The notes under the pieces are model-generated. The model saw only the letters and a list, made by a program, of their open reading frames with translations. It was not told where the DNA came from and searched no databases. Positions 10,671-14,167 of a DNA stretch of 37,304 bases are shown piece after piece. The stretch is taken from assembly GCA_002773615.1 (NCBI GenBank), contig PFAP01000001.1, positions 1 to 37,304 on the forward strand, given 5' to 3'. How positions within the stretch are numbered: the stretch's first letter is position 1; each line of letters starts with the position of its first letter. The position numbers and the translations under genes were made by a program. The DNA comes from Candidatus Falkowbacteria bacterium CG10_big_fil_rev_8_21_14_0_10_39_11 (lineage in GTDB: Bacteria > Patescibacteriota > Patescibacteriia > UBA11705).

Positions 10671-10960
10671 ATTTTCTTGCAGACTCAGGGACCAAGAGTT
10701 AATTATATGTATATTTTATCCTACTTTGATATAAAATCAAAAAAGTGTAGTGTGAGATCTGTTGTGAATCTATGATCTTAGTTAAATTCTCATAAACTGT
10801 CAAGCGTATTGTTGTTTATAAACCAATAAAGTGGTTTCCTCGTCAATTTGCTGGAGAAAGTTGATAAAAATACAGAATTATCTTGTATTTTTGTGAAGCT
10901 CATGCTAAAATTTAAGAGAATTATTAGCGAAAATTATTGTTTCAAACAGACTGTAAAATT

Positions 10961-13900
10961 ATGAAAGAATTATCAAAAGCCTATAATCCTCAAGAATTTG
11001 AGGCCGATATTTATCGTTTGTGGGAAGAACAAGATTTATTTAATCCCGATACAACTCATCCTGATGGAGAACCGTATTCTATCTTGATGCCGCCACCAAA
11101 CGTGACGGGCGTTTTGCATTTGGGCCATGCCTTGGAAAATGCTTTGATGGATATAATGACTCGTTATCAACGCCTACAAGGCAAAAGAACATTATTGTTG
11201 CCCGGTACCGATCATGCTGCCGTGGCTACTCAGGCCAAAGTAGAAAGACTGTTGGTTGAGAAGGGGATTAAAAACCCTCGCGAAGAGTTTGGTCGCCAAA
11301 AATTGCTTCAAGAAATCCGAACTTACGCTGAAGAATCAAAGTCTACAATTTTAAGTCAGATTAGAAAAATGGGCACCAGTTGTGACTGGTCACGTTTGGC
11401 TTATACTTTTGATGCTGAACGCAGTGAGGCGGTGAACGAAGTTTTTTATCGCATGTATCATGACGGTTTGATTTACAAAGGTTATCGAGTGGTCAACTGG
11501 TCGGTCAAAGGGCAATCAACCTGTTCTGATGACGAATTGGTTCATATTGAACGAGAAGCCAAATTATACACTTTTAAATACAGTGATGACTTGCCATTTG
11601 CCATTTCAACCACCAGACCAGAAACAAAGTTGGGCGATACCGCGATTGCAGTTAACCCCAACGATGAGCGCTACAAAAAATATATTGGTGAAAATTTTAT
11701 TGTAGATGTTGGCGCTATTAAACCTTTGAAACTCAAAGTTATTGCCGATGAAAATATAGATCCTGAGTTTGGTACCGGTGCGGTCGGTGTTACTCCGGCG
11801 CACAGTCCGATTGATTTTGAAATGTATGAGAAACAAAAAGCTGATGGTAATCCAATCGATTTGATTTCTGTTATCGGTCCCGACGGCCAAATGACCGCCG
11901 AAGCCGGTCCGGATTATCATGGGCTGGATGTGCTTGCCGCTCGGCAAAAGTTTATTACTTGGCTCAAAGATAACGACTTATTTATTTCCGAAGAAGAGAT
12001 TAGTCAGAATGTCGGTACTTCAGATCGTTTTGGTGATGTTGTTGAAGCTTTGCCAATGACTCAGTGGTTCGTGGATGTTAATGCTGTAATTCCCAACCGA
12101 GGCAAATCATTGAAGCTGCTGATGAAAGAGGCCGTTACCACTGGGCTTGATGGTGACAAGAAGAAAGTCGTAAGGGTAACGCCCAAAAGATTTGAAAAAC
12201 TCTATTTCAATTGGATTGATAATTTGCGTGACTGGTGTATCTCACGCCAGATTTGGTGGGGACATCGAATCCCGGTTTGGTATTGTCGCGATTGTCAGGA
12301 ATCAGTAGTTTCTGACGCCAAACAATGCACCATTATTTTACAGCGACACGGCGAAGCTGACAGCAATGCCAATGATTATTTAAATTCCGATGTTAGCAAA
12401 GTTAACAACCGGTTGACAGAAAAGGGCCGTAAACAAGTTCTCGCTGCTGTCAAAAAAATGCCCCAGATCAATGCCATTTACTCGTCAGATATGGAACGAG
12501 CCAAGGAAACGGCTGAGATTTTTGCTGAAAAATTAAAATTAGAAATAGAATACGATGATCGTTTACGAGAAGTCGGCGTTGGTGACTTTGAAGGCAGTCC
12601 TGACGTTGGTGATGGTTTCAACCAGACACGGGCCAAATTTTCTGCCTGGCATCATGACAATCCTCATGGCATTGAGTCTTTTGACGAGCTCAAAACTCGC
12701 GTCTTTGCTTCATTGACCGACATTGCTTTTGAGCATCCAGGTGAGACTGTTTTGGTTGTGACACACGGTGATATTGCTCGAACTGCTCAAGGTTTACATG
12801 AAAACATTAGTGATGAAGATATTTTCCACTTGAGTTATCCTGACACTGGCGAAAGTTTTGAAATCAAAATCACTCCAGTAACTTGTGAGTGTGGTTCTCA
12901 CGATGTTTATCAAGATGAATATACTCTCGATACTTGGTTCAGTTCTGGTCTTTGGCCGTTTTCCACACTTGGCTGGCCAAATAATTCACATGACTTAAAA
13001 GATTTTTTCCCAACCAGCTGGATGCAGATGGGATATGAGATTATTTTTTTCTGGATGGCTCGAATGATTTTGATGAGTTCATATACTTTAAACGAAATTC
13101 CATTTAAAGATGTCTATATTCACGGCATGCTCCGCGATGAAAAAGGTCAAAAGTTTTCCAAGTCAGCCGGCAATGGAATTGATCCCGTTGAGATCGCAGA
13201 AAAATATGGTACCGACGCCCTGCGTTTGAGTTTGATCAGCGGAGTGACTCCCGGCAATGATTCTCGTTTTTATTTGGAAAAAGTTGAATCAAATCGAAAT
13301 TTTATCAATAAATTGTGGAACATTTCGCGTTATATTTTCATGTCATCCAAGGCCAAATACTCTGATTCAGTTCCTTCACACTCAGCCGCGGATGATTGGA
13401 TTTTATCCCGACTCAATCGGGTGATCGATGCGGTCAATCAACTGTTTGCTGATTACAACTTTTCTCAGGCGGCCGAGTTGCTTCGAGAATTTACCCGAGA
13501 TGATTTTGCTGATTGGTATTTGGAAATCGCCAAAGTAGAAAAGAAAAAAGATGATATTTTAATTTATATTTTGAATAATTTACTTCGATTGTGGCATCCG
13601 TTTATTCCCTTTGTCACGGAAGCAATCTGGCGTTCAATGGGAGAGAAGAGCTCTGTCATGGTCAGTTCTTGGCCCAAAGTAAAGTCAGCTATTGTTGATC
13701 AGGAATTCGAAGCGGCTTTTGCCGTTATTCCAGAAGCTATTACCAAGATTAGAAACGTTCGAGCTGAATATCGTATAGATCCCGGCAAAAAAATTCCACT
13801 GCGGATCAATTCAAATGCCAAGGAAACCATGCTGGCAGATAATTTAGAGATTGTAAAAGCTCTGGCTCGGTTGGATTCCATTGAATTTGTCTCCGCCAAA

Positions 13901-14167
13901 CCAGACCGGTCAGCTTCAGTGGTTATCGGTCCGATTGAACTGTATATTCCTCTGGCCGAAGTGATTGACATTGATCAAGAAAAAGAAAGATTATCAAAAG
14001 AATTGGAAGATATTAAAAAATACGTAAACTCAGTCAAGAAAAAACTGGACAATAAGAGCTTTGTTGATAATGCTCCAAAGAGTGTTGTCGCTGGCGAACA
14101 GGTTAAGTATGAAGAAGCTGAACAAAAGATGATTCTGCTTCACAAACAATTAGAAGAACTAAAATAA
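10961..14167 (+). CDS. valS: valyl-tRNA synthetase with inserted histidine phosphatase domain
   Basis: PPPNVTGVLHLGHAL, GTDHAAVATQ, STTRPET editing domain, WWGHRIPVWYC, DTWFSSGLWPFSTLGWP, KFSKSAGN, C-terminal coiled coil; insert at about 12326-12880. ATG 10961; the track start at 10937 is TTG. Confidence 0.95.
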   Translation: MKELSKAYNPQEFEADIYRLWEEQDLFNPDTTHPDGEPYSILMPPPNVTGVLHLGHALENALMDIMTRYQRLQGKRTLLLPGTDHAAVATQAKVERLLVEKGIKNPREEFGRQKLLQEIRTYAEESKSTILSQIRKMGTSCDWSRLAYTFDAERSEAVNEVFYRMYHDGLIYKGYRVVNWSVKGQSTCSDDELVHIEREAKLYTFKYSDDLPFAISTTRPETKLGDTAIAVNPNDERYKKYIGENFIVDVGAIKPLKLKVIADENIDPEFGTGAVGVTPAHSPIDFEMYEKQKADGNPIDLISVIGPDGQMTAEAGPDYHGLDVLAARQKFITWLKDNDLFISEEEISQNVGTSDRFGDVVEALPMTQWFVDVNAVIPNRGKSLKLLMKEAVTTGLDGDKKKVVRVTPKRFEKLYFNWIDNLRDWCISRQIWWGHRIPVWYCRDCQESVVSDAKQCTIILQRHGEADSNANDYLNSDVSKVNNRLTEKGRKQVLAAVKKMPQINAIYSSDMERAKETAEIFAEKLKLEIEYDDRLREVGVGDFEGSPDVGDGFNQTRAKFSAWHHDNPHGIESFDELKTRVFASLTDIAFEHPGETVLVVTHGDIARTAQGLHENISDEDIFHLSYPDTGESFEIKITPVTCECGSHDVYQDEYTLDTWFSSGLWPFSTLGWPNNSHDLKDFFPTSWMQMGYEIIFFWMARMILMSSYTLNEIPFKDVYIHGMLRDEKGQKFSKSAGNGIDPVEIAEKYGTDALRLSLISGVTPGNDSRFYLEKVESNRNFINKLWNISRYIFMSSKAKYSDSVPSHSAADDWILSRLNRVIDAVNQLFADYNFSQAAELLREFTRDDFADWYLEIAKVEKKKDDILIYILNNLLRLWHPFIPFVTEAIWRSMGEKSSVMVSSWPKVKSAIVDQEFEAAFAVIPEAITKIRNVRAEYRIDPGKKIPLRINSNAKETMLADNLEIVKALARLDSIEFVSAKPDRSASVVIGPIELYIPLAEVIDIDQEKERLSKELEDIKKYVNSVKKKLDNKSFVDNAPKSVVAGEQVKYEEAEQKMILLHKQLEELK

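Follow-up and report, generated by a model that had tools for sequence, protein, structure and literature searches.

The window analyzed here, a stretch of 37,304 nucleotides, carries on its forward strand a gene for valyl-tRNA synthetase (ValRS) with an RHG histidine phosphatase domain in its interior. The fused valS frame (10937..14167, +) is uninterrupted by stops and encodes 1076 residues when read from a TTG at 10937, although the ATG at 10961 is the likelier start codon. Its product passed the NCBIfam ValRS models NF004349 (962 bits, cut-off 704) and TIGR00422 (898 bits, cut-off 612), and has an anticodon domain and a C-terminal arm in addition to a HIGH motif (HLGH, 11117..11128, +), a KMSKS-type motif (KFSKS, 13151..13165, +) and the editing-domain motifs STTRPET and PAHSPIDFE, which are apparently intact (11606..11821, +). 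Alignment to Thermus thermophilus ValRS (1gax) located the two cysteine pairs of the zinc knuckle, CRDC (12284..12295, +) and CEC (12884..12892, +), which are followed by a DTWFSSG motif (12929..12949, +) lying 11-16 residues upstream of a second insertion site used in relatives. Residues 423 and 434 of 1gax aligned with residues 456 and 646 of the window protein, so that the window protein is longer by about 180-190 residues between its zinc pairs, C450-C453 and C650-C652. The stretch from the ISR motif to WFSSG, which we refer to as site A (the zinc knuckle), spans 8-59 residues in those ValRS of the class that are unfused and hold no other insert, versus mostly 201-234 residues in fused enzymes. 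The body of the window ValRS (10937-14167) looks mosaic, in that its catalytic halves share 65-74% identity with L015, L032 and L230, while its insert and C-terminal part stand nearer to its own family (L005).

The inserted domain (12326..12862, +; Pfam core 12332-12847) matched Pfam His_Phos_1 over residues 466-637 with E = 4e-33 and a score of 115 bits (cut-off 21.7), and when searched alone it found its best PDB match in PhoE of B. stearothermophilus (1h2e/1ebb, E = 1e-16). The catalytic residues are all present on the same strand, namely R470 and the nucleophile H471 in the RHG motif (12344..12349, +), R521 within SSDMERA (12497..12499, +), the acid E545 within LREV (12569..12571, +) and the second histidine, H610 of THG (12764..12766, +). 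These results bear out the initial annotation, which had described an RHG phosphatase inside a single valS ORF, complete in its catalytic residues and inserted between zinc ligands where a canonical ValRS has a short loop; the limits proposed there, 12326-12880, were right to within a few codons. AlphaFold2, run on the single sequence of the insert alone, returned a pLDDT of 41.

The insert did not reach the cut-offs of TIGR03162 (alpha-ribazole phosphatase, CobC; 93.7 versus 162.9 bits), NF038349 (2,3-diphosphoglycerate-dependent phosphoglycerate mutase, dPGM; 86.6 versus 225 bits) or TIGR00249 (phosphohistidine phosphatase SixA; 24.3 versus 74.5 bits), and PRK07238 (RNase H/CobC) was among its best-scoring models. 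That the insert substitutes for a missing metabolic enzyme, e.g., phosphoglycerate mutase, might be entertained since dPGM belongs to the RHG family and since the window's own genome (G000, 85% complete) gave no match to PF01676 (iPGM-type). We regard this explanation as highly improbable, given that the dPGM and CobC scores fall so far under their cut-offs, and a search of the same genome for enolase also gave no match, leaving no obvious need for a mutase. Lower glycolysis may be absent from this genome, at its 85% completeness.

One feature of the insert is a loop, LNSD (12380..12391, +), which is 88-100% conserved within the nine-member clade of inserts to which the window belongs and stands where free RHG proteins mostly have Q-G. 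Several inserts of isoleucyl-tRNA synthetase (IleRS) have a SCWP(E) loop. Such host-dependent loops suggest that the inserts may act upon particular substrates.

The fusion was also found in a genome of the same genus, in 3 of 3 genomes of the family and in 8 of the 11 genomes of the order, with frames of 1070-1124 aa, which rules out misassembly. A second species of the same genus has an insert 72% identical to that of the window, and non-synonymous differences of 0.16 per site (pN) between the two species, against saturation of the synonymous sites, indicate purifying selection. Among 113 inserts, which were gathered by RHG similarity such that badly decayed copies may escape the profile, the five catalytic positions were kept in 112, compared to a mean column majority share of 41%. 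Both catalytic histidines and the second arginine were invariant; the first arginine had a single exception (R to V in L157), and the acid was Glu, or Asp in four inserts. Long site-A segments without RHG, when screened, contained no recognizable decayed RHG and held other inserts only. A passive spacer, a decayed domain or an assembly artefact is accordingly a reading to which we assign next to no probability, as related genomes share the fusion, stops are absent, and the insert is catalytically conserved and under purifying selection. The argument of the initial annotation that retained catalytic residues speak against a passive linker is supported by their retention across relatives, and two of the ways in which it had supposed its reading might fail, a misassembled insert or homologues lacking the catalytic His and Arg, are contradicted by the same data.

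In order to determine the distribution of the domain, the class and phylum were searched with His_Phos_1, and further frames of 900-1570 aa were collected and then classified as IleRS or ValRS. The phylum as sampled comprises many families of small genomes, mostly 0.5-1.5 Mb, and is for that reason probably Patescibacteria (CPR). RHG was present in 123 of the 199 distinct IleRS and ValRS collected, a set that was partly selected by RHG; 85 of these were IleRS (71 with a single domain, 13 with two and 1 with three) and 38 were ValRS (37 single, 1 double). Class samples obtained with the two synthetase models rather than by RHG contained the domain in 18 of 148 ValRS and 21 of 108 IleRS by our count, which was verified on the retrieved sequences, and the insert is thus commoner in IleRS. 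Of 294 genomes across the phylum, at least 50 gave a match to a profile spanning the junctions (our count). The first collection of long frames (≥600 aa) with RHG held 98 distinct proteins, comprising 66 IleRS, 31 ValRS and 1 other protein. One contig scan returned no named fusion, only two ValRS without RHG (L051, L052) and a free RHG protein (L053). The suspicion of the initial annotation that similar fusions might exist unremarked is therefore supported, and our survey goes beyond it in finding that IleRS inserts are commoner, that tandem copies and other insertion sites occur, and that the ValRS site is common to an unrelated ASCH-like insert. We also considered mutual exclusion between IleRS and ValRS inserts (no overlap in 108 genomes versus 2.3 expected, p 0.06, uncorrected for kinship) and rejected it, at least two genomes, G133 and G502, carrying both.

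Site A holds 119 of the 139 RHG domains. Four ValRS domains and one IleRS domain lie at the second site (site B, 11-16 residues past WFSSG), three IleRS domains lie further downstream, and twelve were not placed by the script. The zinc cysteines themselves were frequently absent, whether or not the enzyme was fused. Two RHG domains, usually arranged in tandem at site A, occur in the IleRS L162, L163, L165-L167, L169-L172 and L174-L176 (family f150) together with L173; L189 is an IleRS with three, and L250 a ValRS with two. Other domains were observed as well. In six genomes (L227, L228, L229, L232, L234 and L239) site A of ValRS is occupied by a domain of about 110 aa, which we call ASCH-like because the Pfam ASCH match was only 0.001-0.004, just below cut-off, and came from 3 of the 6 that were scanned; in a seventh genome the ValRS (L116) has such a domain adjoining RHG. 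In the ValRS L168 the RHG domain follows a Ser_hydrolase domain, the IleRS L245 combines Ser_hydrolase, NUDIX and RHG, and the IleRS L251 combines GNAT and RHG. N-terminal extensions of two ValRS (L235, residues 1-335; L236, residues 1-160) matched no Pfam family.

Presence and absence of RHG mapped on the ValRS tree required at least 15 state changes, even within a genus. In genus g63, for example, the ValRS L158 has the domain and L069 does not, the two being 97.7% identical just after the site and 65% before it, and in genus g22 L045 has RHG where L232 has the ASCH-like domain. Gain or loss inside a single genus indicates that the domain is dispensable and not essential for ValRS function. 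The insert of L158 was closest to an insert from another order, and the catalytic halves of the window ValRS were closest to those of lineages with distant inserts, which together imply that inserts and enzyme bodies have had partly separate histories. On the tree of RHG domains the inserts grouped by host enzyme (13 label changes versus 66 in shuffles, with weak deep branches) and were separate from most free RHG proteins, and an AU test did not reject a single clade of all synthetase inserts (p-AU 0.90). Separate origins of the ValRS inserts, as appeared in a first quick tree, found no support in AU tests, which rejected neither one Val clade (p 0.54) nor the all-insert clade (p 0.90).

Taken together, the conservation of the catalytic residues and the recurrent state changes on the ValRS tree lead us to read the insert, from its sequence, as a phosphatase cassette of the branched-chain synthetases that is very probably active and under selection. 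The zinc knuckle may simply be a surface spot tolerant of insertion, in which an ordinary phosphatase rides along with an unrelated job of its own, or has been fixed by drift, uncoupled from ValRS. Other domains at the ValRS site (ASCH-like, Ser_hydrolase) or elsewhere in IleRS (NUDIX, GNAT) fit a permissive spot of this kind, as do the frequent changes of state and the normal editing motifs retained by fused enzymes, and there is the precedent of RNase H-CobC, the RHG fusion closest to this one among those studied, in which coupling between the domains was tested, the domains were found to be functionally dissociated, and the fusion was judged to be fixed by drift (PMC7466739). An indifferent docking place would nevertheless leave unexplained that RHG is far more frequent than any other insert and, in long proteins, nearly restricted to IleRS and ValRS, that the inserts stand apart from most free RHG proteins, and that tandem and triple copies occur. 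We consider an uncoupled passenger to be a substantial possibility, with about one chance in three, and on account of the near confinement of long RHG proteins to the two synthetases we rank coupling of some form slightly above it.

We therefore favor, at roughly even confidence, the reading that the segment is a complete RHG phosphatase inserted in the zinc knuckle of ValRS that would carry out a local reaction linked to the activation of isoleucine and valine. The cassette interrupts the aminoacylation core, a piece of which lies on either side, and is one of the RHG domains that have been gained and lost repeatedly, and apparently exchanged, in the IleRS and ValRS of the phylum. From what is known of the family, its predicted chemistry is the removal of phosphate by way of a phosphohistidine formed at His471, Glu545 serving as acid. 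As RHG occurs almost only in two related synthetases, near the site of amino-acid activation, a local small-molecule role seems likeliest; hypothetical examples would be the clearance of AMP, or the removal of phosphate from an enzyme inhibitor that is adenylate-like or linked to a nucleotide. The initial annotation had proposed coupling of aminoacylation to hydrolysis of a phosphorylated metabolite or alarmone, or to proofreading, which we likewise treat as hypothetical. What counts against our explanation is that the cassette is dispensable, and that unrelated domains are found at the same ValRS site or elsewhere in IleRS. Compensation for lost editing was also considered and rejected, the editing motifs of fused enzymes resembling those of unfused ones and giving no sign that the insert replaces an editing function.

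That domains are rapidly gained, lost and swapped at a single site could also reflect self-protection, with RHG, NUDIX, GNAT and serine hydrolase serving as alternative chemistries of swappable modules that detoxify natural inhibitors or toxins of IleRS and ValRS. The co-occurring domain families often modify small molecules, as is known of those families, and the inserts are confined to two known antibiotic targets; no inhibitor is known for these organisms, and PADLOC gave no match for the insert, and we hold self-protection to be improbable. IleRS and ValRS face a special difficulty in discriminating their amino acids. A broader form of the coupled reading, which we advance tentatively and with the balance against it, is that the zinc knuckle of both synthetases could serve in this phylum as a place where exchangeable enzyme cassettes, RHG foremost, dock and add a new layer of quality control or self-protection near the site of aminoacylation.

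Few enzymes are as conserved as the synthetases, and the repeated entry of a phosphatase, its active site intact, into the same place of two of them in a phylum of bacteria with small genomes suggests either an unrecognized reaction connected with the charging of isoleucine and valine or a striking example of domain parking. The question is directly testable, with a natural pair of enzymes with and without the domain in one genus (L158 and L069) and with single-residue mutants of the active site.

Several known systems share parts of this arrangement. The T. thermophilus ValRS has the same architecture, motifs and zinc pairs as the window enzyme but only about ten residues between the pairs and no phosphatase. 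Free RHG phosphatases such as PhoE, CobC and PspA (His_Phos_1; 1h2e) have the domain and all catalytic residues in common with the insert, whereas the window domain is internal to an aminoacyl-tRNA synthetase and has an LNSD loop where those proteins mostly have Q-G. Hydrolytic domains within synthetases are familiar from the INS domain of ProRS and the CP1 editing insertions of IleRS and ValRS; these act on aminoacyl-tRNA esters, whereas RHG enzymes transfer phosphate to a histidine. The IleRS with an N-acetyltransferase domain described by NF040702 likewise joins a class I branched-chain synthetase to an extra small-molecule enzyme, but the added enzyme is a different one, and the window protein scored 143.6 versus 1999 bits with that model and had no GNAT match. 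RNase H/CobC (Rv2228c, MSMEG_4305) is likewise an RHG phosphatase fused to a nucleic acid enzyme, but as an end-to-end fusion found in Actinomycetales only, whereas that of the window is an internal insertion. In the open-access literature searched there was no description of a ValRS or IleRS with a histidine phosphatase. While synthetases with extra domains are known, a recurrent phosphatase cassette in two synthetases across a phylum appears to be new.
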